Source of the DNA: Pseudomonadota bacterium
GTDB lineage: Bacteria > Pseudomonadota > Alphaproteobacteria > Kiloniellales > JACOMY01
Reading direction: 5' to 3'
DNA length: 40,770 nucleotides
NCBI GenBank assembly: GCA_029781795.1
Contig: JAKOWB010000213.1
Span: 1 to 40,770 of the forward strand
Both the position numbers and the translations under genes were made by a program. Shown here one piece after another: positions 8,884 to 30,948 of this stretch; the stretch's first letter is position 1, and every line of letters begins with the position of its first letter. The notes beneath the pieces are model-generated. The model saw only the letters and a program-made list of their open reading frames with translations. It did no database searches and was not told the origin of the DNA.

Positions 8884-9636
8884 CTACTCGTCACCCACCG
8901 GGTCCAGGGTCGAGCGGGTGAAGGCCTCGAAGTAGTCCATCAGGGCGTCGGCGGCGGCGCTGGCGTCCTTGGCGCTGCCTTCGGCGATGGCGTTGGCGAT
9001 GTTGGCGTGGAGCTGCGCCACATAGACCATGTCGCCGATGCGGTGATGGAACCAGAAGCGCCGCGACAGCGCCTGGATCGAGTTGATCGCGGCGCGGGCG
9101 AACTGGTTGCGCGTCGCCGCCGCCACCAGCTTGTTGAACTCGTTGTCGAGGGCGAGGAAGCCCTTGTCGTTGCCGGCCGCGGTGGCGAGCACCATGTCGT
9201 TCGCCAGGGCGCGCAGGCGCGCGCGCTGGTCGGGCGAGGCACGCAGTGCCGCCAGCCGGGCCACCAGCCGTTCCAGCTCGCGCCTGAGCTCGATCACCTT
9301 GAGCTGTTCGCCGACGTTGATGTCGCAGACCATGACGCCGCGGTGCGGCACGATGGTCACCAGGTGCTCGCGCGCCAGGCGCTGCAGCGCCTCGCGGATC
9401 GGCGTGCGGCCGATGCCCAGGGACTGGCTGAGTTCGGTTTCCGACACCACGCTGCCCGGGGCGAGGCGCAGCATGACGATCTGCTCCTCGATCCGGCGGT
9501 AGGCCTGCTCGGTCAGGCGGGTCTTGCCGTCGCCCTGCTCGCCGCCCGCCGTGGCCGCGCCGCCCGCCTTGCGACGGGCGCCGCGCGGCGGCTTCGCGGC
9601 GGCCTTCCTGCCGGTCGGCTTGCGTGGTGTGGCCAT
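8884..9636 (-). CDS. GntR-family regulator with FCD effector domain
   Basis: The 250-residue protein begins with a Lys/Arg/Ala-rich tail (about 1-38), then a winged helix at about 40-105 containing VSETELSQSLGIGRTPIREALQRLA, then a helical FCD ligand-binding domain. In metal-binding FCD proteins the ligands are Asp and three His. Here D164 and H210 can be placed, but the position after D-x3 is N168 and the last His seems absent (MDYFEAF), so ligand sensing may not use a metal. The start at 9636 follows a G-rich ribosome site; longer frames reach 9813 but would overlap the dioxygenase gene. It is divergent from the PhyH gene and probably controls it. Confidence 0.88.
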   Translation of the reverse strand: MATPRKPTGRKAAAKPPRGARRKAGGAATAGGEQGDGKTRLTEQAYRRIEEQIVMLRLAPGSVVSETELSQSLGIGRTPIREALQRLAREHLVTIVPHRGVMVCDINVGEQLKVIELRRELERLVARLAALRASPDQRARLRALANDMVLATAAGNDKGFLALDNEFNKLVAAATRNQFARAAINSIQALSRRFWFHHRIGDMVYVAQLHANIANAIAEGSAKDASAAADALMDYFEAFTRSTLDPVGDE

Positions 9637-9805: not shown

Positions 9806-10639
9806 ATGACCAAGGCCCTGTCCCCCGAGGCCGTCGAGCAATATCGCCGCGACGGCTTCCTGTTTCCCGTGCCGGCCCTGGAGCGCGCCGAGGCCCTGGC
9901 CTGCCGGCGCGAACTGGAGGCCTACGAGGCGGCGCACGGCGGCCCCTTGAAGGGCAACATGCGACACAAGGTGCATCTGCTCTTCCCCTGGGCGGCGAAC
10001 CTGATCCGCCACCCGCGCATCCTCGACGCGGTCGAGGACATCCTGGGCCCCGACATCCTCTGCTGGGCCACCAATCTTTTCACCAAGGAGCCGCACGACC
10101 CGGCCTTCGTTTCGTTCCACCAGGACTCGACCTACTGGGGGCTCGATCCCGCCGACGTCATGACCGCCTGGATCGCGCTGTCCGACTGCCCGGCCAACAG
10201 CGGGCCGATGAAGTTCGTCGCCGGCACGCACAAGAGCCAGCAGCCGCACCGCGATACCTTCCACGAGAAGAACCTGCTGACCCGGGGGCAGGAGATCGAG
10301 GTGGCGGTCGACGAGTCCAAGGCCGCGACCGTGGTGCTGAAGGCGGGCGAGATGTCGCTGCATCATGTCATGGTGGTGCACGGCTCGGGCCCGAACGAGA
10401 GCGACGACCGCCGCATCGGCCTCGCCATCCGCTACATCCCGGCCTATGTGCGCCAGGTGAAGATGCGCGATACCGCCACCCTGGTGCGCGGCCAGGACCG
10501 CTTCGGCAACTTCGACCTGGAGCCGGCGCCCAAGGCACCCGCCGACGCCGAGGCGCTGGCGGCGCACAAGTGGGCGATGGATCGCCAGGTGGCCGTGCTC
10601 TACCAGGGCACCGGCCACAAGGGCGAGATGCGCAACTAG
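9806..10639 (+). CDS. Phytanoyl-CoA dioxygenase (PhyH) family Fe(II)/2-oxoglutarate oxygenase
   Basis: The 277-residue protein has the PhyH double-stranded beta-helix. The iron ligands are H105 and D107 in VSFHQDSTYW and the distal H192 in VVHGSGPN. R203 lies 11 residues after H192, the position of the 2-oxoglutarate-binding arginine in PhyH. It therefore looks catalytically complete and should hydroxylate or otherwise oxidise a small substrate with 2-oxoglutarate and O2. The substrate is unknown; PhyH-family bacterial enzymes act on many acids and natural products. The ATG follows GAGGAGCG. It starts a run with a PanB-like protein and a hydrolase, divergent from the GntR regulator. Confidence 0.9.
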   Translation: MTKALSPEAVEQYRRDGFLFPVPALERAEALACRRELEAYEAAHGGPLKGNMRHKVHLLFPWAANLIRHPRILDAVEDILGPDILCWATNLFTKEPHDPAFVSFHQDSTYWGLDPADVMTAWIALSDCPANSGPMKFVAGTHKSQQPHRDTFHEKNLLTRGQEIEVAVDESKAATVVLKAGEMSLHHVMVVHGSGPNESDDRRIGLAIRYIPAYVRQVKMRDTATLVRGQDRFGNFDLEPAPKAPADAEALAAHKWAMDRQVAVLYQGTGHKGEMRN

Positions 10640-10688: not shown

Positions 10689-11546
10689 ATGGAAGAGCGC
10701 AAGAAGCTCACCGTGCCCGACCTCAAGGCCCGCAAGAAGGCGGGCGAGCGCGTGGTGATGGTCTCGGTACCAGACTATCCCATGGCGATCTGGGCAGAGC
10801 GCGCCGGGGTCGACATCGCCGCCGTCGGCGACTCGCTCGGCATGGTGAGCTACGGCCATCCGAACACCCTGCCGGTCACCATCGACATGATGATCCAGCA
10901 TGCCCAGGCGGTGCGCCGCGGCGCGCCCAACTGCATGATCCTGGTGTCGATGACCTATGGCTCCTATGCCACGCCGGAGATCGCCGTGGTCAACGCCCTG
11001 CGACTGATGAAGGAGGGCGGCGCCGACGTGGTGAAGATGCAGGGCGGCCGCGAGAAGGCGCACATCGTCAAGGCCATCGCCGACGCCGGCGTGCCGGTGA
11101 TGAGCCATGTCGGCATGTGCCCGCACTTCGTGCATCAGTACGGCGGCTTCAAGCTGCAGGGCAAGACCGCCGCCGAGGCGCTGGAGATCATCGAGGACGC
11201 CAAGGCGATCGAGGCCGCCGGCGCCGTCGGCTTCGAGATCGAGGCCGTGCCGACCCCGGTGGCCGAGGCGGTCGACAAGGCGGTGGAGATCTTCACCTTC
11301 GGCATCGGCGCCGGCGGCGCCAGCACCGGGCAGCTGCTGCTCGGGATGGATCTGCTCGGCATGTTCGACCAGTTCAAGCCGAAGTTCTCGAAGCGCTTCG
11401 CGCAGATCTCCGACATCGCCACCGAGGCCTTGAAGACCTATGTCGCCGAGGTGCGGGGCAAGTCCTTCCCCGATGCCGACCACAGCTATGGCATGAAGCC
11501 GGAGGAGGCGGCGAAGCTGGCCGCCGCGCTCGCCGCGCGGTCATGA
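10689..11546 (+). CDS. PanB-like protein (ketopantoate hydroxymethyltransferase family) with altered metal site
   Basis: The 285-residue protein follows PanB along its whole length: VGDSLGMVSYGHPNTLPVT, VRRGAPNC, YATPE, GADVVKMQGG, VHQYGGFKLQGKT, FEIEAVP and FGIGAGGASTGQLL. PanB makes ketopantoate from ketoisovalerate and methylene-tetrahydrofolate. E. coli PanB holds Mg2+ with Asp45, Asp84 and Glu114. Here the first is kept (D48), but the second falls on S87 (LVSMTY instead of LADLPF) and the third on Q118 (KMQGG instead of KIEGG). The catalytic glutamate (E185) remains. It is therefore unlikely to be the normal pantothenate enzyme; a different aldolase or lyase role in this catabolic cluster is inferred. 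Its stop overlaps the hydrolase start. Confidence 0.85.
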   Translation: MEERKKLTVPDLKARKKAGERVVMVSVPDYPMAIWAERAGVDIAAVGDSLGMVSYGHPNTLPVTIDMMIQHAQAVRRGAPNCMILVSMTYGSYATPEIAVVNALRLMKEGGADVVKMQGGREKAHIVKAIADAGVPVMSHVGMCPHFVHQYGGFKLQGKTAAEALEIIEDAKAIEAAGAVGFEIEAVPTPVAEAVDKAVEIFTFGIGAGGASTGQLLLGMDLLGMFDQFKPKFSKRFAQISDIATEALKTYVAEVRGKSFPDADHSYGMKPEEAAKLAAALAARS

Positions 11547-12400
11547 ACGCGCTTCCCGCCGGTCTCAGTCACGGCCGTGCCGAGCTCGGCGACGTCTCGC
11601 TGCACTATGTGACGGCGGGCGAGGGTGAGCCGCTGGTCCTGCTGCACGGCTGGCCGCAGACCTGGTTCGAGTGGCGCCACCTGATCCCCGAGCTGGCGCG
11701 CCGCTACCGGGTTATCGCGCCGGACCTGCGCGGCCTCGGCGATTCCTCGCGGCCGGCGGAGGGTTACGACAAGCGGACCATGGCCGCGGACATCCACGGC
11801 CTGCTGGGCTCCCTCGGTGTCGAGCGCTGTTGCCTGGTGGGGCACGACTGGGGCGGACCGGTGGCCTTCGCGCTGGCCGCGCACTATCCCGGCCTGGTGC
11901 GGCGCCTCGCCATTCTCGACGTCGTGATTCCCGGCGACGGCGGCGACTTCTCGCAGGGTGGACGGCGCTGGCACCATGCCTTCCATCAGGTCGCGGGCCT
12001 GCCGGAGGAGCTGGTGCGCGGTCGCGAGCGCGCCTACCTCGGCTGGTTCTATCGCAACTTCGCGCACCGGCCGGACGCCATCGGCGAAGAGGAAATCGCC
12101 GAGTATCTGAGGACCTACAGCGATCCGGCCGCGCTCGCCGCCGGCTTCGCGCTCTATCGCGCGTTGCCGCGGGATCGTGAGGACAATGCCGCCTGGCTGT
12201 CCCGGCACAAGCTCGCCATGCCGGTGCTTGCCGTCGGTGGTGGCGAAAGCTTCGGCCGCCGGCACGAGCCCGAGGAGTCGCTGCGCCGCTGCGCCCAGGA
12301 CGTGACCGGCGCCGTCATCGCCGACAGCGGGCACTGGATCCCGGAAGAGCAGCCGGAACGCCTGCTGGCGCTGCTGCTGGACTTCTTTGCCGGCAACTGA
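11543..12400 (+). CDS. Alpha/beta hydrolase, epoxide hydrolase/haloacid dehalogenase-like
   Basis: The 285-residue protein has the oxyanion motif LLHGWPQTWFEW (about 33-44), the nucleophile elbow VGHDWGGPVAFA with aspartate D102, a helical cap at about 150-210, and a terminal histidine in SGHWIPEEQPE. An aspartate nucleophile with HGWP and HDWGG is the pattern of soluble epoxide hydrolases and relatives. Fluoroacetate dehalogenases have an Arg next to the nucleophile (HDRGG), which is missing here, so epoxide or ester hydrolysis fits better. The ATGA overlap with the PanB-like gene implies coupled translation and a shared pathway. Substrate unknown. Confidence 0.88.
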   Translation: MNALPAGLSHGRAELGDVSLHYVTAGEGEPLVLLHGWPQTWFEWRHLIPELARRYRVIAPDLRGLGDSSRPAEGYDKRTMAADIHGLLGSLGVERCCLVGHDWGGPVAFALAAHYPGLVRRLAILDVVIPGDGGDFSQGGRRWHHAFHQVAGLPEELVRGRERAYLGWFYRNFAHRPDAIGEEEIAEYLRTYSDPAALAAGFALYRALPRDREDNAAWLSRHKLAMPVLAVGGGESFGRRHEPEESLRRCAQDVTGAVIADSGHWIPEEQPERLLALLLDFFAGN

Positions 12401-12451
12401 TCCGGGCGGGCTGCCGTATTCCATTGACAGCCTCTCGATCGCTCAAGCAGC

Positions 12452-12466
12452 ATATCGGTCGTATAT
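12452..12466. promoter_or_regulatory. ATAT-N7-ATAT motif, candidate GntR operator (site 2)
   Basis: ATATCGGTCGTATAT lies 57 bp before the TRAP binding-protein start. It matches the site at 9719-9733 in 12 of 15 positions, including both ATAT arms and their 7-bp spacing. A TTGACA (12424-12429) lies 22 bp upstream, but no well-spaced -10 pairs with it. The match suggests the TRAP-FAD operon belongs to the same regulon as the PhyH-PanB-like-hydrolase operon. Confidence 0.5.
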
Positions 12467-12522
12467 TAGTGAGCCATCACAGAATGGCCGCTGATGGGCA
12501 AGACCCTGGGGAGGGACGCGAC

Positions 12523-13560
12523 ATGACTCAAGCGACATCCAGACGGCGATTCCTGAAGACGGCCGGCGTAGCCTCGGCCGGTGCGATCGCCGCGCCGGCG
12601 ATCGTCGGCGCGGCCGAGACATTCAACTGGCGCTGCCAGTCGATGTGGAGCGCGGCCGAGCTGACCTACAAGGTATTCGAGGAGTTCTGTGCCAACCTGA
12701 CCAAGGCGACCAACGGCCGCCTGGTGATCGAACCCTTCGCCGCCGGATCGGTGACCGGCGTGTTCGAGACCCTGGACGCGGTCTCGGCTGGCCTGTTGCA
12801 GGCGCACTCTTCCTGGCCGGGCTACTTCTCGGGCAAGGATGCCGGTCTGGCGGTGCTGAGCGACTTCGTCTTCGGCTACGACAATCCCTTCCAGGCCGAC
12901 GCCTGGTACCACTATCGCGGCGGCCTCGACCTGCTGCGCGATGCCTACAAGCAGTACAACGTCTATCCCATCGGGGTGAGCTGGTGGGGCGTGGAGAGCC
13001 TTGTCTCGAAGAAGGAGCTGAACACGCTGGCGGACTTCAAGGGCGTGTCGATCCGCTCGCCGCAGGGCATGACGGCCGAGATCTTCACCAAGCTCGGTGC
13101 GAACATCGTCGTGCTACCGGGTGGCGAGGTCTTCTCGGCGCTCGACAAGGGCGTGGTGGACGCCGCCGACTGGGGCACCGTTTCGATGAACGAGCGCATG
13201 GGCTTCTCGTCCGTGGCGCCGCACCCGACCAAGATCTTCCACTCCATGCCGGCGCAGGAGTTCAGCGTCAACATGGATGCCTGGAACGCCCTGCCTGACG
13301 ACCTCAAGGCCCTGGTCGCCACGGCAACGCGCGAATGGACCATCGAGCAGGTGCAGCGGGTGGCGGTCGACGACATCCGCGTCACCAAGGAGCTGGCGGC
13401 CAAGGGCATTACGGTCAACGTCTGGAGCGGCGACCGTATGAAGGCCCTGCGCGACCTGGCGCAGGTCACCTGGGCCGAGTGGTCGCAGAAGACGCCGCTG
13501 GCCAAGGCGGCCTATGATTCGCACCTCGGCTGGCTGAAGGAACTGGGCCAGGTAGCGTGA
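12523..13560 (+). CDS. dctP: TRAP transporter substrate-binding protein (DctP family)
   Basis: The 345-residue protein begins with a Tat-like signal, SRRRFLKTAG followed by a hydrophobic stretch and a likely cleavage near AAETF, so it should be periplasmic. The mature part shows the DctP fold with FKGVSIRSPQG, whose arginine normally binds the substrate carboxylate, and GGEVFSALDKGVVDAADWG. The overall pattern resembles the keto-acid/TakP-like branch. ATG 12523 follows GGGGAGG; a longer frame from 12424 lacks a signal peptide at its start. The TGA overlaps the GTG of the membrane subunit. The substrate is probably an organic acid handled by the neighbouring enzymes. Confidence 0.92.
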   Translation: MTQATSRRRFLKTAGVASAGAIAAPAIVGAAETFNWRCQSMWSAAELTYKVFEEFCANLTKATNGRLVIEPFAAGSVTGVFETLDAVSAGLLQAHSSWPGYFSGKDAGLAVLSDFVFGYDNPFQADAWYHYRGGLDLLRDAYKQYNVYPIGVSWWGVESLVSKKELNTLADFKGVSIRSPQGMTAEIFTKLGANIVVLPGGEVFSALDKGVVDAADWGTVSMNERMGFSSVAPHPTKIFHSMPAQEFSVNMDAWNALPDDLKALVATATREWTIEQVQRVAVDDIRVTKELAAKGITVNVWSGDRMKALRDLAQVTWAEWSQKTPLAKAAYDSHLGWLKELGQVA

Positions 13561-14135
13561 GTTCCGTGACCGACAGCCCGGCGGGCGGCGACATGCCGCC
13601 CGCCGGGCGCCGGCCCTCGCTGGAAGGCTTCTGCCGCGCCGTCGATCGGGTCAATGCCTGGGTCGGGCTGGCTTGGGGCTATGCCATCGTGCTGGTGACG
13701 ATAGCGATCATGATCGAGATCGTCAGCCGCGGCGCCTTCAACCACGGCACGATCTGGGCCAACGAGACGACGATCTATCTCTCGGCGGTCGCCTACCTGA
13801 TCGGCGGCGGCTATGCGCTGCAGTATCGGCGCCACGTTTCCATCGACTTCGTCTATCGCATGTTCAATCGCCGCGTCCGGCGCGGCCTCGACCTCTTCTC
13901 CTTCGTCTTCTTCCTGGCCTACGCCGGCACATTGACTTGGATCGGCGGCAAGATGGCCTGGAAGTCCTACCTGCAGAACGAGGGCACCGGCACGCCGTGG
14001 GACCCGGTCATCTGGCCGGTGAAGATGGCGATACCGCTGGCCGGCCTGCTGCTGCTGCTGCAGGGCATCGTCAACCTGATGCGCGACCTGGGCCTGGCGA
14101 GCGAGCGCCCGGTCGAGACGCCACCTCCGACCTGA
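13557..14135 (+). CDS. dctQ: TRAP transporter small membrane subunit (DctQ family)
   Basis: The 192-residue protein has a proline-rich cytoplasmic start, then four hydrophobic segments at about 38-60, 75-95, 110-130 and 155-175. DctQ features visible are EIVSRGAFNHGTIWANETTIYL and the basic loop YRRHVSIDFVYRMFNRR. The start is GTG inside the sequence GTGA shared with the preceding stop, indicating coupled translation. It pairs with the large subunit DctM to form the sodium-driven permease. Confidence 0.92.
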   Translation: MSSVTDSPAGGDMPPAGRRPSLEGFCRAVDRVNAWVGLAWGYAIVLVTIAIMIEIVSRGAFNHGTIWANETTIYLSAVAYLIGGGYALQYRRHVSIDFVYRMFNRRVRRGLDLFSFVFFLAYAGTLTWIGGKMAWKSYLQNEGTGTPWDPVIWPVKMAIPLAGLLLLLQGIVNLMRDLGLASERPVETPPPT

Positions 14136-14150: not shown

Positions 14151-15467
14151 ATGTCCATCGAGCTCCTGAGCATCCTCTTCGTCGTCGCCTTCATCGTGGT
14201 GCTGCTGAGCGGCCTGCCGCTGGCCTTCGCCACCGGCGCCATCGCCGTGGTCTTCACCTATGCCCAGTTCGGCGAGCCGGGGCTGACGCTGGTCGTCAGC
14301 CGGGTCTTCACGCTGATGGGGAACTACGTCCTGGTTTCGGTGCCGCTGTTCATTTTCATGGCCTGCATCCTGCAACGTGCCGGCATCGCCGAGGCGATCT
14401 TCCGCGCGGTGCACGTCTGGGCCGGGCGCCTGCCGGGCGGCCTGGCGGTGGCGGTGATCATTTCCTGCGCGCTGATGGCGGCGGTGGTCGGCGTGATCGG
14501 CGCCGAGATCGTGACGATGGGCGTGGTGGCGCTACCTGCGATGCTGTCGCGCGGCTACCACAAGAGCCTCGCCCTGGGCTCGATCTGCGCCGGCGGCGGC
14601 CTCGCCACGCTGATTCCGCCGAGCGTCGTCTTCATCATGTATGGCCTGACCGCCGGAGTATCGATCGGCGAGCTCTATGTCGCCGGCATCATTCCGGGCT
14701 TCATCCTGGCCGGCTCCTACATGGCCTATATCGTGGTCCGCTGCCTGCTCAACCCCTCGCTCGCGCCGCGCCCGCCGGCGGAGGAGAGGGACATTCCCCT
14801 GGGGCAGAAGCTGAAGTTGCTGGGCGAGCTGGTGCTGCCGGGGCTGCTGGCCGTCGCCGTGCTGGGCTCGCTCTACCTCGGCATCGCCACCCCGACCGAG
14901 GCGGCCGGCGTCGGCGTCGTCGGCGCGCTGATCACGATGCTGGTGAATCGCAGCTTCTCGTGGCGCGCCATCGCTCAGGCCATCAAGGACACCACGCTGG
15001 TGACCGTGATGCTCTACTGGCTCTTCTTCGGCTCCTCCGCCCTGGTCGGGGTCTATACGCTCGCCGGCGGGACCAAGCTGATCCAGGAGACGCTGACCGC
15101 GCTGCCGGTCGGCCCGATCGGCGTGCTGCTGCTGATCCAGGCGATCTGGATCGTGCTCGGCTGCTTCATCGACTGGATCGGCATCCTGCTGCTCACCGCG
15201 CCGATCTTCGTGCCGGTGGTGGTGGCGCTGGGCTTCGATCCCGTCTGGGTCGGCGTGCTGTTCTGCGTGAACATGCAGATCAGCTACATCTCGCCGCCTT
15301 TCGGCCCGGCCGCCTTCTACCTCAAGGGCGTCGTGCCGGCCGGCATCACGCTGGGCGACATCTTCCGTTCGATCCTGCCTTACCTGGTGTTGCAGTTCAT
15401 CGTCCTCGGCATCCTGATCGCCTTTCCTGGGCTGACGCTGTGGCTGCCCAGCACGATGCGCAACTGA
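14151..15467 (+). CDS. dctM: TRAP transporter large membrane subunit (DctM family)
   Basis: The 438-residue protein is hydrophobic throughout, with about 12 membrane segments, as expected for the translocating subunit. Family features include SGLPLAFATGAIAVVF near the start, SVPLFIFMACIL, GGLATLIPPSVVFIMYGLTAGVSIGELY and ATPTEAAGVGVVGAL. It follows dctQ by 15 bp and precedes the FAD oxidoreductase by 14 bp, so the four genes form one transcript. Confidence 0.94.
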   Translation: MSIELLSILFVVAFIVVLLSGLPLAFATGAIAVVFTYAQFGEPGLTLVVSRVFTLMGNYVLVSVPLFIFMACILQRAGIAEAIFRAVHVWAGRLPGGLAVAVIISCALMAAVVGVIGAEIVTMGVVALPAMLSRGYHKSLALGSICAGGGLATLIPPSVVFIMYGLTAGVSIGELYVAGIIPGFILAGSYMAYIVVRCLLNPSLAPRPPAEERDIPLGQKLKLLGELVLPGLLAVAVLGSLYLGIATPTEAAGVGVVGALITMLVNRSFSWRAIAQAIKDTTLVTVMLYWLFFGSSALVGVYTLAGGTKLIQETLTALPVGPIGVLLLIQAIWIVLGCFIDWIGILLLTAPIFVPVVVALGFDPVWVGVLFCVNMQISYISPPFGPAAFYLKGVVPAGITLGDIFRSILPYLVLQFIVLGILIAFPGLTLWLPSTMRN

Positions 15468-15481
15468 CGGAGCTGCCCGCG

Positions 15482-17317
15482 ATGGAACGCCGGCACGAGA
15501 CGCTGGTCGACGTGATGCGGGTGCCGGTCGATGGCGACGTCGGCGGGGCCCTGTTGCCGACCGGCGGCCGCAGTCCGGCCGTGGTGGAGTGCGAGATCCT
15601 GGTTGCCGGTGGGGGCACCGGCGGCGTCGCCGCCGCGCTGGCCGCGCTGGCCGAGGGGCGGCAGGTCTGCCTGCTGGAGGAGACCGACTGGCTGGGCGGA
15701 CAGTTCACCGCGCAGGGTGTGGCGGCGCTGGACGAGCACGAGCACATCGAGCGCTTCGGTGGCACCGCCAGCTACTACCGCCTGCGCGAGGCGCTCCGCG
15801 ACCACTACCGGCGGCTGGCGCGCGATCCCTCGGCACTCGATCCGTTCAATCCCGGCAACTGCTGGGTCACGCGCCTGGCTTTCGAGCCGCGCGTGGCGGC
15901 CGAGCTGCTGGAGCAGTGGCTGGCACCCTTTGTCGAGAGCGGGCAGCTTCACCTGTTCAAGCGCTGCAAGGTTTCCGCGATCGAGACCGTCGGCGACCGC
16001 ATCGTCGCGGTCGAGGCTCTCGACCTCGAGGGGCCCGGCGCCTGGCGCTTCCGTCCCGCCTACGTCATCGACGCCACGGAACTGGGCGAGCTGCTGCCGC
16101 TGGCCGGTGCCGACTACGTCGTCGGCGCCGAGACCCTCGCCGACACCGGCGAGGCCCATGCCCAGCCGCGCGAGGCCAAGCCGCGCTGCGTGCAGAGCTA
16201 TACCTACATCCCCGGCCTCGAACTGGCGCCGGAAGGCGAGGACCATAGGATCCCGGTGCCGCCACGCTATCGGGAGTTCCGCACCGGACAGCCCTACAGC
16301 CTCACCATCGAGGTGCATGGCGGCGAAATCTACGGCGAGGAGAGCGGCTGGCTGAGCTACCGCACTTTCGAGCGGTTGCCCGGCACCAAGGGCTCGCTCT
16401 GGAGCTACCGTCGCCTGGTCGATCGCGCCCACTTTCCCGGCTATCCGCGCGACCTCTCGATCATCAACTGGCCCGGCAACGACTACCGCGAGGCCAGCCT
16501 GCTCGAGGTGACGCCGCGCCAGCAGGCGCAGGCACTGCAGGACGGCAAGCGCGTCAGCCTGGGCTTCGTCCACTGGCTGCAGACCGAAGGCGAGGCCGCG
16601 GCCGGACGCCACGGGGCGCCGGAACTGCGCCTGCTGCCGGCGATCATGGGCAGCGCCGATGGCCTGTCGAAGTACCCCTATATCCGCGAGGCTCGCCGCA
16701 TCAAGGCGCTGAAGACCGTGGTGGAGCAGGAGGTCTCGACCGAGTTCCAGCCGGGGCCGCGCGCGGCGCCCTTCGCCGATTCCGTCGGCGTCGGCTGGTA
16801 CCCGATCGACATCCACCGCTCCGGCCCGGAGGACGTCGGCCATTCCTGCCGCACGCGGCCCTTCCAGATCCCGCTGGGCGCGCTGATCCCGCGCCGGATT
16901 GTCAATCTGGTGGCGGCGGCGAAGAACATCGGCACGACCCACCTCACCAACGGCTGCTACCGGCTACATCCGGTGGAATGGAACATCGGCGAGGCCGCGG
17001 GCCTGGTCTGCGCGGCCGCGCTCGACCAGGGGGTGACGCCGGCCGCCATCCGCGAAGAGCCGGGCCGGCTGCGGGCCTTCCAGGACCGCCTGCTGGCCCG
17101 CGGTCTGCCCTTCGGCTGGCTGATCGACGTCGGCGTCGGCGACCCGCGCTTCGCCGTGGCGCAGCGGCTGTTCCGTGATGGCCTGCTGCTGCCTGCCGAG
17201 GGCTTGGCGATCGGCCTGGACCGTGAGCTGAGCGCCGCTGAGTGGACGGCCTGGGGCGGGCGGGGGGACATGCCGGCCACCCGCGGCGCCGGCCTGGCGG
17301 CGTTGGCCGCCCGCTAG
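15482..17317 (+). CDS. FAD-dependent oxidoreductase (FAD_oxidored family), cofunctioning with TRAP operon
   Basis: The 611-residue protein has an FAD-binding Rossmann motif ILVAGGGTGGVAAALAAL at about 39-56, followed by LLEETDWLGGQFTAQGV, the signature of the FAD_oxidored (PF12831-like) family. A later PYIREARRIKALKTVVEQEV and the C-terminal LVAAAKNIGTTHLTNGCYRLHPVEWNIGEAAG also fit that family. The reaction is not known for most members. It is the last gene of the TRAP operon, so it may oxidise the imported compound. An upstream extension of the frame through the TRAP genes is only a shadow; ATG 15482 fits the family N terminus. Its TAG shares the tetranucleotide CTAG with the stop of the convergent exporter gene. 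Confidence 0.88.
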   Translation: MERRHETLVDVMRVPVDGDVGGALLPTGGRSPAVVECEILVAGGGTGGVAAALAALAEGRQVCLLEETDWLGGQFTAQGVAALDEHEHIERFGGTASYYRLREALRDHYRRLARDPSALDPFNPGNCWVTRLAFEPRVAAELLEQWLAPFVESGQLHLFKRCKVSAIETVGDRIVAVEALDLEGPGAWRFRPAYVIDATELGELLPLAGADYVVGAETLADTGEAHAQPREAKPRCVQSYTYIPGLELAPEGEDHRIPVPPRYREFRTGQPYSLTIEVHGGEIYGEESGWLSYRTFERLPGTKGSLWSYRRLVDRAHFPGYPRDLSIINWPGNDYREASLLEVTPRQQAQALQDGKRVSLGFVHWLQTEGEAAAGRHGAPELRLLPAIMGSADGLSKYPYIREARRIKALKTVVEQEVSTEFQPGPRAAPFADSVGVGWYPIDIHRSGPEDVGHSCRTRPFQIPLGALIPRRIVNLVAAAKNIGTTHLTNGCYRLHPVEWNIGEAAGLVCAAALDQGVTPAAIREEPGRLRAFQDRLLARGLPFGWLIDVGVGDPRFAVAQRLFRDGLLLPAEGLAIGLDRELSAAEWTAWGGRGDMPATRGAGLAALAAR

Positions 17318-26686: not shown

Positions 26687-26695
26687 GACGTGTCC

Positions 26696-28405
26696 ATGTC
26701 ACCGGAAGGACCGGGCGGCAACCTGACCGCCGCCGAGCGCTTCGCGCTGGCCTTGAGGCGCCACGGCGTCGAGCTGATCTTCGGCCAGTCGATCCCCTCG
26801 CAGATCCACCTCGCGGCCGAGGCGATGGGCATGACGCAGATCGCCTATCGCACCGAGAACGCGGGCGCGATCATGGCCGACGGCTTCGCCCGGATCTCCG
26901 GCCGCGTCCCGGTGGTCACGGCGCAGAACGGCCCGGCGGCGACGCTGCTGGTGCCGCCGCTGGCCGAGGCCCTGACCGCCTCGATCCCGCTGGTCGCCAT
27001 CGTGCAGGACGTGGCGCGGCCCAACCTCGACCGCAACGCCTTCCAGGAACTGGACCACCTGGAGCTCTTCAAGGGCTGCGCCAAGTGGGTGCGCCGCGTG
27101 CCGGTCAGCGCGCGGATCGAGGACTACGTCGACATGGCCTTCACCGCCGCCGCCAGCGGCCGGCCGGGCCCCGCGGTGCTGCTCTGCCCGCTGGACCTGA
27201 TCGGCGAGGGCGGGCTGCCGGCCGGCGGTCGCGGCGCGACCCTGGGCCGCTATCCGCTGGACCGGACCGTCGCCGATCCGCAGCAGGTGCGCCTGGCGGC
27301 CGCACTGCTGGCCGGCGCGCGGCGGCCGCTCCTGGTGGCTGGCGGCGGGGTGCACAGCTCGGGCGCGGCGGCGGCGCTGGCGCGCCTGCAGCAGGACTGC
27401 CACCTGCCGGTCGCCACCACGGCCATGGGCAAGGGCGCGGTGGACGAAGGCCACCCGCTGTCGCTTGGCGTCGTCGGCTACTTCATGGGCACGGGCGGCA
27501 TGGCGAAGTTTCAGCGCCCGCTGATCGAGGAGGCCGACGTCGTCTGCTTCGTCGGCAGCCGCACCAACCAGAACGGCACCGATTCCTGGACCCTCTTCCC
27601 GCCGGGCGCCAGCTACATCCAGCTCGACGTCGACAGCCTGGAAGTGGGACGCAACTACGAGGCCCTGCGCCTGGTCGGCGACGCGCGCCTGACGCTGGAG
27701 GCGCTGGCCGAGGCGCTGGCGGGCCTGGACCTCGCTCGCCGCCGCGCCGCGCGACCGGCGCTTGAGCAGCGCATCGCCGAAGGCCGCGCGCGCCATGTCG
27801 CCGAAGCGGCGCCGCTGCTGGCCTCACCGGCCACGCCGATCCGGCCCGAGCGCATCATGGCGGCGCTGCGCCAAGTGCTGACGGCCGACACCATCGTCGT
27901 GGCCGATGCCTCCTATGCCTCGATCTGGTGCGCCAACTATCTGCCGGCGCTGCGGGCCGGCATGCGCTTCCTGACGCCGCGCGGCCTTGCCGGCCTCGGC
28001 TGGGGCCTGCCGCTGGCGCTGGGGGCAAAGCTGGCGGCGCCGGCCTCGCCGGTGCTCTGCGTCGCCGGTGACGGCGGCTTCGGCCACGTCTGGTCGGAGC
28101 TGGAGACCAGCCGGCGGCATGGCATCAACCTGGTGGTGACGATCCTCAACAACCAGGTACTGGGCTACCAGAAGCATGCCGAGGACGTGCTGTTCGGCGC
28201 GCACACCACGGCGGTGGACTTCGCACCGGTCGACCACGCCGCCATCGCCCGGGCCTGCGGCCTCCATGGCGAGCGCATCGAGCGGGCCGAGGACTATGCC
28301 CCCGCCCTGGCGCGGGCGCTGGCGGCGGACCGCACCACGGTGCTGGACGTGATCGTCGATCCCGCCGCCTATCCGCCGATTACCTCCTTCGAGGGGCGGC
28401 TCTAG
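26696..28405 (+). CDS. Thiamine diphosphate-dependent enzyme, acetolactate synthase-like
   Basis: The 569-residue protein has the three-domain layout of the acetolactate synthase/benzoylformate decarboxylase superfamily. The catalytic glutamate is E54 in AYRTENAGAIMADGFAR. The central domain contains PLLVAGGGVHSSGAAAAL. The C-terminal ThDP motif starts GDGGFGHVWSELETSRRH and ends NN in VVTILNNQVLG. It therefore appears active. Acetolactate synthase, glyoxylate carboligase and sulfoacetaldehyde acetyltransferase are all possible. I do not see enough specific residues to choose. ATG 26696 is preferred over GTG 26690 because AGGA lies at a better distance. It is co-transcribed with the binding protein. 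Confidence 0.9.
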   Translation: MSPEGPGGNLTAAERFALALRRHGVELIFGQSIPSQIHLAAEAMGMTQIAYRTENAGAIMADGFARISGRVPVVTAQNGPAATLLVPPLAEALTASIPLVAIVQDVARPNLDRNAFQELDHLELFKGCAKWVRRVPVSARIEDYVDMAFTAAASGRPGPAVLLCPLDLIGEGGLPAGGRGATLGRYPLDRTVADPQQVRLAAALLAGARRPLLVAGGGVHSSGAAAALARLQQDCHLPVATTAMGKGAVDEGHPLSLGVVGYFMGTGGMAKFQRPLIEEADVVCFVGSRTNQNGTDSWTLFPPGASYIQLDVDSLEVGRNYEALRLVGDARLTLEALAEALAGLDLARRRAARPALEQRIAEGRARHVAEAAPLLASPATPIRPERIMAALRQVLTADTIVVADASYASIWCANYLPALRAGMRFLTPRGLAGLGWGLPLALGAKLAAPASPVLCVAGDGGFGHVWSELETSRRHGINLVVTILNNQVLGYQKHAEDVLFGAHTTAVDFAPVDHAAIARACGLHGERIERAEDYAPALARALAADRTTVLDVIVDPAAYPPITSFEGRL

Positions 28406-29257: not shown

Positions 29258-29611
29258 TTAAGTCCCTTCCGGCGCCGCCGGGTCGTTCAGCACCGTCACC
29301 TCGACCTCCAGCGCCAGGATGAGGAAGGACCAGGCCTTGCCGTGGCTGTCGAGATTGAGGGAGGCATTGACCCCGCCCTCCAGCGCCTCGTGCATGACGA
29401 AGTTGAGGCCGTGCAGCCCCGGCAGCTCGTAGCGTTCGATGGCGCCGCGGAAGAGGTCCGGGTATTCCCGCTTCAGCCGCTCGGGCGTCAGGCTGGCCTT
29501 CACCTCCTCGTAGTGGCGCGGGTCGTAGACCCAGACGCCGACGTTGGAGGTATCGCCCTTGTCACCGGAGCGGGCGGAGGCGATGGCGCGCAAGGGGACG
29601 CGGTGCTTCAT
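29258..29611 (-). CDS. AtuA C-terminal-domain protein
   Basis: The 117-residue protein contains LRAIASARSGDKGDTSNVGVWVYDPRHYEEVKASL, matching the C-terminal domain of AtuA-type (DUF1446) proteins. AtuA is usually one chain of about 590 residues; here this part is a separate gene whose ATG overlaps the upstream stop as ATGA. The two pieces likely form one complex. AtuA is essential in acyclic terpene utilisation in Pseudomonas, but its biochemistry is not settled. The pairing is described further in the larger piece. Confidence 0.85.
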   Translation of the reverse strand: MKHRVPLRAIASARSGDKGDTSNVGVWVYDPRHYEEVKASLTPERLKREYPDLFRGAIERYELPGLHGLNFVMHEALEGGVNASLNLDSHGKAWSFLILALEVEVTVLNDPAAPEGT

Positions 29612-30948
29612 GCGCGGAACACCTCGATCTTCGGACGGATGGTGTCGCGGTCGAGGAACAGCGACTGCGTGGTGACCGAGGGCGTGATGTGCCCACGCAC
29701 GCCGCCGCCGCCCGCCGGCCCGCCCATGTAGAGGTTGTCGACCTCGGCCAGCAGCAACTCGGCCAGCGCGCGGTCGTGGGTGCGCAGCGCCGCGCGCAGG
29801 CGCACGTCCTGCGTCTCGGCCTGCTGGCGGCGGGCCGTGGCGTGCACCGCGTTGACGCCGATCAGGTCGATGCGCAGCGGTCCGGCATAGCCGCGCGCCC
29901 TGGTCATGCGCTGGCGCAGAATCTCGCCGGCCAGCTCGCCGCGCCCGACGGCGCCGGGGCCGGCATAGCTGATCTCGGCCTCGGCCAGCAGGCCGCCGTC
30001 GAAGCCGACCGTGACCTTGAGCTGCCGGGGCCGCTCGCGACCGCTGGCGCCGCTGACGGCGACACGGTCCGGCCCCTGCTGCGCCAGGCGCACGCCGGTG
30101 AAGTCGGCGCTGACGTCGGGTGTCAGGTAGCGGGCAGGGTCGTGCACCTCGTAGAGCAGCTGCTCCTTGACCACGTGCACGGTCACCATGCCGCCGGTGC
30201 CCGGCAACTTGGTGATGACGGCGCTGCCGTCGGCGGCGCACTCGGCCAGCGGAAAGCCGATGTTGGCGAGGTCCGGCACGGCCTTGTAGCCGGGGTCGGC
30301 ATAGGCGCCGCCGGTGACCTGGGTGGAGCATTCCATCAGGTGGCCGATCACCGTGCCGGCGCCGAGCTTCGCCCAGTCGTCCAGCGCCCAGCCGAAGCGC
30401 AGCGCCAGGGGCGAGAGGAAGAGCGCCGGGTCGGCCACCCGCCCGGCGATGGCAACTGTGGGCTCGTGCTGCAGGGCCTGCAGCATCACCTCGGCGCCCA
30501 GGTAGGCGTTGGCGCCGACCACCTTGAGGCCGGCCTCGCCGATGGTCTGGCCGAGCTCGGGCAGCAGCGTGTCCGGTGTCATCAGGGCGGTGACGTCGTC
30601 GCCCTCGATCGTGGCGATCACCGTGCCCTCCAGGCCGAGGCGCCGGGCCGCCGCGGCCGCCGCCCGTCCGGCCGCCGGCACGTTGGCGACGCCGCCATTG
30701 GTGACGATGCCGGTGCCCTGGCGCAGGCAGGCCGGCAGGGTCGCCTCCAGCCGGGCCTCCAGCATGGGGTTGTAGCCCCGGCTGGGATCCTTCATGCGCG
30801 CCAGGTGACCGTGCGCCAGCGTGCGCTCGGCCAGGCATTCGAAGATCAGGAAGTCGAGCGCGCCGCGCTCCGCCAGGTCGGCCGCCGGCTCCACCCGGTC
30901 GGCGGCATAGCCGGCGCCGGTGCCGAGGCGGATGGTCCTCCCGGCCAC
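29608..30948 (-). CDS. AtuA N-terminal-domain protein (DUF1446)
   Basis: The 446-residue protein has the DUF1446 start IRLGTGAGYAADRVEPAADLAERGALDFLIFECLAERTLAHGHL, followed by GTGIVTNGGVANVPAAGR and AIAGRVADPALFLSPLALRFGW. Members occur in catabolic clusters with carboxylases and acyl-CoA enzymes. The start is GTG at 30948, 4 nt after the stop of the lipid-A-type membrane gene, so it may be transcribed with the envelope genes upstream. That is an unusual neighbour for an AtuA. The stop overlaps the next start. Confidence 0.9.
   Translation of the reverse strand: MAGRTIRLGTGAGYAADRVEPAADLAERGALDFLIFECLAERTLAHGHLARMKDPSRGYNPMLEARLEATLPACLRQGTGIVTNGGVANVPAAGRAAAAAARRLGLEGTVIATIEGDDVTALMTPDTLLPELGQTIGEAGLKVVGANAYLGAEVMLQALQHEPTVAIAGRVADPALFLSPLALRFGWALDDWAKLGAGTVIGHLMECSTQVTGGAYADPGYKAVPDLANIGFPLAECAADGSAVITKLPGTGGMVTVHVVKEQLLYEVHDPARYLTPDVSADFTGVRLAQQGPDRVAVSGASGRERPRQLKVTVGFDGGLLAEAEISYAGPGAVGRGELAGEILRQRMTRARGYAGPLRIDLIGVNAVHATARRQQAETQDVRLRAALRTHDRALAELLLAEVDNLYMGGPAGGGGVRGHITPSVTTQSLFLDRDTIRPKIEVFRA

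Follow-up and report, generated by a model that had tools for sequence, protein, structure and literature searches.

The closest described relative of the protein reported here is ketopantoate hydroxymethyltransferase, or PanB (EC 2.1.2.11), in which, going by the structure 1M3U of the Escherichia coli enzyme, we take Asp45, Asp84 and Glu114 to bind Mg2+ and Glu181 to be the catalytic residue. The protein is encoded at positions 10689-11546 of the window, by which we mean the whole 40,770-nucleotide stretch analysed (contig JAKOWB010000213.1 of a Pseudomonadota bacterium). It differs from PanB in having Asp84 and Glu114 replaced, Gln142 changed to His and Val179 changed to Glu, and in having oxygenase and tripartite ATP-independent periplasmic (TRAP) transporter genes for neighbours in place of panC. 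With the wider phosphoenolpyruvate (PEP) mutase/isocitrate lyase superfamily, which includes 2-methylisocitrate lyase and 2,3-dimethylmalate lyase, it has in common a TIM-barrel fold and chemistry on C-C or C-P bonds.

Proteins of this kind have been met before without being recognized as a group. A single non-canonical PanB paralogue was noticed earlier in Rhizobium etli CFN42; that paper reports that RHE_PE00443 keeps 5 of 12 active-site residues and has no detectable metal-binding domain, that the panB mutant was auxotrophic despite its presence, and that its expression gave no rescue of that mutant, the data not being shown there (PMC3082293). Another example is WP_012631254.1 of Methylobacterium nodulans (plasmid pMNOD02), which is named "panB" in RefSeq. 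It has Cys84, Gln114 and Glu179 like a second copy in the genome of the window, but is 51% identical to the window protein and lies near a sterol desaturase family gene, DUF6166 and a major facilitator superfamily transporter gene. Among the best-ranked matches in the open-access literature, we found no account of the clade, of its residue signature, or of a pairing of PanB with oxygenases.

A clade with a changed metal site

The substitutions at sites 84 and 114 are shared by a whole clade, separate from canonical PanB. The reading frame in the window is complete, with an ATG start, a TGA stop and 285 residues. Its features are as follows, with sites numbered after E. coli K-12 PanB by alignment with the window protein.

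10689-11546, + strand: PanB-like protein, type 1 (Asp45 kept; Asp84 to Ser, Glu114 to Gln, Gln142 to His, Val179 to Glu; Glu181 kept), from alignment and profile matches
10947-10949, + strand: codon of S87, at the place of Asp84, from alignment
11040-11042, + strand: codon of Q118, at the place of Glu114, from alignment
11124-11126, + strand: codon of H146, at the place of the canonical Gln142, from comparison of canonical and non-canonical rows
11235-11243, + strand: codons of E183-I184-E185, with the new Glu two residues ahead of the Glu181 equivalent, from alignment and the predicted strand

By sequence family the protein is a PanB. It scored 304 bits against the Pfam profile PF02548 (cut-off 28.7) and 266.5 against the NCBI panB equivalog model TIGR00222 (cut-off 207.55), and each of the five solved relatives found is a PanB (165-216 bits). 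An initial annotation, made by eye, had D48 in the place of Asp45, S87 and Q118 at the sites of Asp84 and Glu114, and E185 as the catalytic glutamate; the alignment with the E. coli protein agrees on all four, shows Lys112 and His136 to be retained as well, and adds the changes at sites 142 and 179. With the ligand roles given above, one of the three Mg2+ ligands of EC 2.1.2.11 is left, namely Asp45, and the presumed catalytic glutamate of that enzyme is present. The predicted strand 181-185 holds both E183 and E185, the equivalents of sites 179 and 181, which are two residues apart and should therefore face the same way. H146 sits in loop 145-149, a low-confidence part of the predicted structure. 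The initial annotation went on to suggest a new member of the PEP mutase/isocitrate lyase fold doing a different C-C bond reaction. The protein does have the fold of that superfamily and does belong to a clade of its own, but the different reaction is not borne out; in sequence and in predicted fold it stays much nearer to PanB than to the other enzymes of the superfamily.

Chance or sequencing error can be ruled out as the source of the substitutions, since Gln114 and Glu179 are present in 120 of the 120 closest homologues listed, with site 84 being Ser in 91 and Ala in 29. Glu181 and Lys112 stand in every row of the homologue alignment, and Asp45 and His136 in nearly every row. Among 36 loci from named genomes, 35 carry Gln114 and Glu179, and the remaining one (L041, 42% identical) is canonical. 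We use "type 1" for the group of the window protein, with Ser or Ala at site 84, and "type 2" for proteins with Cys there. Sorting 95 rows by sites 84, 112, 114 and 179 gave 38 canonical, 35 type 1, 18 type 2, two type 3 and two other rows, with no intermediates between canonical rows and types 1 and 2 among the 95. Types 1 and 2 were sorted by Gln114, Glu179 and site 84, and canonical rows by Asp84 and Glu114, so that these sites are uniform by definition and only His142 is independent in the comparison of the two sides: site 142 is His in 53 of 53 rows of types 1 and 2 and Gln in all 37 canonical rows compared, a count that omits type 3, the two rows with the signature SNHEHLE, and L090, a divergent row despite its Asp84 and Glu114. 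Site 179, in the same rows, is Glu in 53 of 53, the window included, and Val in 97% of the 37. The window protein has the defining residues of types 1 and 2 together with His142.

The division does not hang on the sorted sites. In a tree made without sites 84, 114, 179 and 209, one split parts 47 non-canonical from 31 canonical rows with 100/99 support and is present in 200 of 200 bootstrap trees, 17 of the 95 rows (five long or odd, 12 near-duplicates) having been omitted. When type 3 was included and the set thinned to 76 rows, nine of them type 3, the third type fell on the non-canonical side (48 vs 28 rows, 98/94, in 97% of bootstrap trees). These trees come with a long-branch warning for E. 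coli and L041, and L094-L096 are in none of them. A further divergent PF02548 group, the SNHEHLE rows L092 (genome G033) and L093 (G014), has none of Asp45, Asp84 and Lys112. Two source labels look doubtful: L026, labelled "Euryarchaeota archaeon", groups with SAR116, and L036, labelled "Bordetella parapertussis", groups with uncultured Betaproteobacteria.

The third type has Glu at both 179 and 181 in nine of nine rows, and RHE_PE00443 belongs to it. On the R. etli plasmid p42e, a gene for 3-methyl-2-oxobutanoate hydroxymethyltransferase, RHE_RS26335, lies after those of a fatty acid desaturase, a MocE ferredoxin and a flavin adenine dinucleotide (FAD) oxidoreductase; we infer that it is RHE_PE00443, because it is the only such gene in the p42e stretch read. 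A second report describes a mocDEF cluster beside a LacI-type gene in R. etli, which matches the p42e place of RHE_PE00443 (PMC3538637). This protein is like the window protein in being non-canonical, in its Glu at 179 and 181, in its side of the tree and in its run with an oxygenase set. It differs in being much more distant, in having lost Lys112, and in those neighbours. A membrane di-iron hydroxylase or desaturase was present near the gene in 11 of 12 type 3 loci viewed. Six plasmid loci were picked by choice from 25 listed rows (379 records); in every one the PanB-like gene adjoins a gene of the sterol desaturase family, and in four of the six a 2Fe-2S or Rieske protein and an FAD oxidoreductase come next. 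In related genomes a PF04116 hydroxylase or desaturase lies near four of five type 3 loci; none was found near the fifth, L098.

Neighbouring genes and the pantothenate pathway

The gene lies in a closely spaced run, behind a divergent regulator, in the following order.

8884-9636, - strand: GntR/FCD regulator, divergent, with 9636 as the chosen start codon, from a profile match
9806-10639, + strand: PhyH-family Fe(II)/2-oxoglutarate oxygenase with an HxD motif, separated by 49 bases from the PanB-like gene that follows it, from a profile match
11543-12400, + strand: alpha/beta hydrolase, nearest to Cif-like epoxide hydrolases, its ATG overlapping the stop codon of the PanB-like gene, from a profile match and solved relatives
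12424-13560 (open reading frame start), + strand: TRAP solute-binding protein DctP, from a profile match; the working start is probably 12523, ahead of a signal resembling those of twin-arginine translocation
13557-14135, + strand: TRAP small subunit DctQ, from a profile match
14151-15467, + strand: TRAP large subunit DctM, from a profile match
15482-17317, + strand: FAD-dependent oxidoreductase (PF12831), conserved in several related loci, from a profile match

The association with oxygenases extends well beyond this locus. Of 52 non-canonical copies, 46 have an oxygenase of one of five kinds within 6 kb, as does 1 of 25 canonical copies (Fisher p 2e-13), and TRAP DctM was found near 28 of 52 and 2 of 25, respectively; the canonical regions were taken from the 38 canonical rows, some regions were short, and, with the choice of queries and the kinship of the loci, the p values overstate, although the contrast itself is large. 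The counts were centred on the PanB copy with the highest score; in L015, L035 and L036 this is a type 2 copy though the loci are listed as type 1, and with proper centring the counts become 29 of 34 for type 1 and 17 of 18 for type 2, leaving the total unchanged. The oxygenases are of several unrelated kinds: PhyH, TauD, Rieske, and membrane di-iron hydroxylase or desaturase. In 15 of the 36 named loci the type 1 gene directly follows the PhyH gene of the window (58-64% identical), and the TRAP system of the window is often there too. Elsewhere, type 1 genes are accompanied by VOC, TauD and short-chain dehydrogenase/reductase (SDR) genes (in SAR116 and its kin), by a desaturase together with a Rieske oxygenase of the VanA type (in Ruegeria marina), or by PhyH with an aldehyde dehydrogenase. 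Type 2 loci mostly share GntR, TRAP, DUF6166, a different PhyH and a PF04116 membrane hydroxylase. PhyH is itself common in the genome of the window, G000, with at least 20 matches.

G000 has a parallel cluster at C303:20000-39000 (L005), made up of a type 2 PanB-like gene, GntR, DUF6166, TRAP, PhyH, a membrane hydroxylase, a PEP-mutase family gene and a cupin. DUF6166, a small protein, travels with type 2 clusters in 13 of 21 loci examined (for example L005:10224-10520 and L101:9595-9885), and three of the 13 (L010, L011 and L085) showed a type 1 gene only. Elsewhere in the window there are genes for a thiamine-diphosphate enzyme (26690-28402) and for an AtuA family protein of acyclic terpene utilisation (29611-30948), as well as acyl-CoA dehydrogenase and SDR genes.

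The pantothenate gene panC is distributed the other way round: 14 of the 25 canonical copies have it within 6 kb, and none of the 52 non-canonical ones does (Fisher p 5e-9, shared descent ignored). G000, which is 96.6% complete and 7.8% contaminated, gave two PF02548 matches, the window gene and a type 2 copy at G000:C303:29218-30042 (52% identical); this profile search found no canonical panB there, and a PF02569 search found no panC, the partner expected with EC 2.1.2.11. Pantothenate is therefore probably not made in this organism by the PanB/PanC route. Our survey covered 58 genomes, that of the window and 57 of its order. Canonical PanB is present in 35 of them, 32 of these having a panC match; the 35 include a partial gene (G036) and a split gene (G037) and exclude G007, the genome of L090. 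Types 1 and 2 occur in 14 genomes, ten of which hold a canonical copy as well. The four with non-canonical copies only are G000, G001 and G018, which gave no panC, and G033, which has it. A further ten genomes, some of them incomplete, have panC without any PF02548 match (nine if a weak match in G028 is set aside); ketopantoate may thus have other sources, and little can be concluded from the absence of a canonical panB. These panC-only genomes hint at another ketopantoate source in this order.

The initial annotation had placed the gene with GntR, PhyH and an epoxide-hydrolase-like enzyme and not with panC, and had asked whether homologues with the Ser and Gln substitutions co-occur with PhyH and TRAP genes; the placement agrees with what was found, and the clade is tied to PhyH and often to TRAP. 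The second, canonical panB near panC that it proposed to look for was not found in G000, where the other copy is non-canonical; in the ten genomes a canonical copy does coexist with the clade. It had counted the lack of another panB, together with normal ketopantoate synthesis by this protein, as evidence against its own idea; a canonical panB was indeed not found in G000, and neither was panC.

A proposed reaction and its rivals

In the loci described above, an enzyme of a kind able to hydroxylate a methyl group stands near a member of a family known to move hydroxymethyl groups, and the simplest joint reading is that a CH2OH group is made and then removed. The TRAP system would import a 2-hydroxy or 2-oxo acid, as its homology predicts; the PhyH-type oxygenase, a hydroxylase by homology, would convert a methyl group of the acid to CH2OH; and the PanB-like enzyme may take off the hydroxymethyl carbon by PanB chemistry run in reverse, with tetrahydrofolate as the likely acceptor. 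We put this forward as a tentative first choice, one that could well be wrong. It treats the window protein as an active enzyme working in the releasing direction with a folate acceptor, its active site probably rebuilt around Asp45, His136, the new His142 and Glu179, and Glu181. The more general statement, that a large, misnamed branch of PanB became partners of PhyH, TauD, Rieske or membrane di-iron oxygenases, rebuilt its metal site with a new Glu and His, and carries demethylation through to methylene-tetrahydrofolate without free formaldehyde, is possible but rather doubtful.

The solved relatives of the TRAP proteins are compatible with a 2-hydroxy or a 2-oxo acid, the latter being the kind of compound that PanB acts on: the window DctP and the binding protein of the type 2 cluster match the lactate-binding 7e9y at 176 and 100 bits and the ketoacid-binding 7ug8 at 107 and 115 bits, respectively. 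Corrinoid methyl-transfer genes are found in six type 1 loci, L010 and L011, both with a methyl-tetrahydrofolate:corrinoid methyltransferase, and L016-L019, which have corrinoid proteins; they point to one-carbon traffic at these loci. The L018 corrinoid protein has only a partial match in G000 (44%, residues 428-638 of 645), on another contig, and the corrinoid part is therefore not general. As for substrates, hints come from a corrinoid protein nearest to the MtgC models but under their cut-offs, a glycine-betaine type binding protein, proX and proline racemase genes, and a mocDEF-like set; betaine, rhizopine and gem-dimethyl acids were considered, and none is common to all loci. Hydroxylation of one gem-dimethyl acid, 2-aminoisobutyrate, by an oxygenase is known (PMC7782822).

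Several points weigh against a releasing enzyme. An enzyme that still acted on a chelating 2-oxo acid would not be expected to lose two Mg2+ ligands. The proposed activity is argued from sequence and neighbours, in a clade that offers no member of known activity. The non-canonical loci also supplied the oxygenase queries, and these loci are related and not independent; six of them, five of type 1 and one of type 2, gave no oxygenase within 6 kb. In one locus (L024) the gene directly downstream encodes an aldehyde dehydrogenase, which could mean release of a free aldehyde, and in G033 panC occurs with a type 2 copy and without canonical PanB. The best solved match of the type 2-cluster TRAP protein, 2hzk, is named a sorbitol/mannitol binder, although we take it to be a 2-oxo acid binder. 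The analogy with 2-aminoisobutyrate covers the first step only, since there the hydroxymethyl product is oxidised, the acid is decarboxylated, and AibC, which resembles serine hydroxymethyltransferase, has no hydroxymethyltransferase activity (PMC7782822).

The same neighbourhood could be served by a lyase or aldolase of the PEP-mutase/isocitrate-lyase kind, the oxygenase hydroxylating beta to a carbonyl and C-C cleavage then giving a larger aldehyde or acid with no need of folate. We regard this as unlikely, though it deserves attention: the sequence is far nearer to PanB than to any lyase, PanB entries alone were matched, and an aldehyde dehydrogenase was noted in a single locus. The reaction may also run forward, with formaldehyde or methylene-tetrahydrofolate from a demethylating oxygenase being captured and added to a 2-oxo acid. 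Demethylase-like neighbours speak for it, among them the VanA-type Rieske oxygenase, the MocD-E-F-like set in R. etli and the corrinoid methyltransferases, and E. coli PanB adds formaldehyde to various 2-oxo acids (PMC10127515). We hold it to be improbable, because an obvious enzyme for the hydroxymethylated product is missing among the neighbours, and the TRAP transporter and regulator suggest catabolism.

An ordinary PanB identity for the window protein is rejected on these grounds: no panC was found in G000, canonical copies coexist with non-canonical ones in ten genomes, and RHE_PE00443 is reported to fail to complement (PMC3082293). That it nevertheless serves as the ketopantoate synthase of its organism is very improbable on the same grounds and in view of the panC-only genomes, which allow for other sources, even though the protein passes the NCBI panB cut-off, G000 gave no canonical panB, and G033 combines panC with a type 2 copy alone. 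Very likely, then, it is not a pantothenate enzyme. A catalytically dead PanB kept for binding or scaffolding would explain the loss of two ligands, but we give it hardly any credence: the conservation of Glu181, Lys112, Asp45 and His136 described above and the uniform new His and Glu, maintained over Alpha- and Betaproteobacteria, would be unlike a decaying enzyme.

Meaning for annotation and for the family

Standard models give the name panB to these non-canonical proteins, and RefSeq does likewise for that of M. nodulans, despite the canonical panB that ten genomes have in addition and although the one relative for which a published test was found cannot stand in for panB. Prototrophy for vitamin B5 would be wrongly inferred from such names. 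Should the link with the oxygenases be functional, catabolic operons of Alpha- and Betaproteobacteria, including those of SAR116 (type 1) and of rhizobia (the third type), would hold an unrecognised one-carbon step, and the rewiring of the metal site would offer a clean natural experiment in how a fold changes its reaction.
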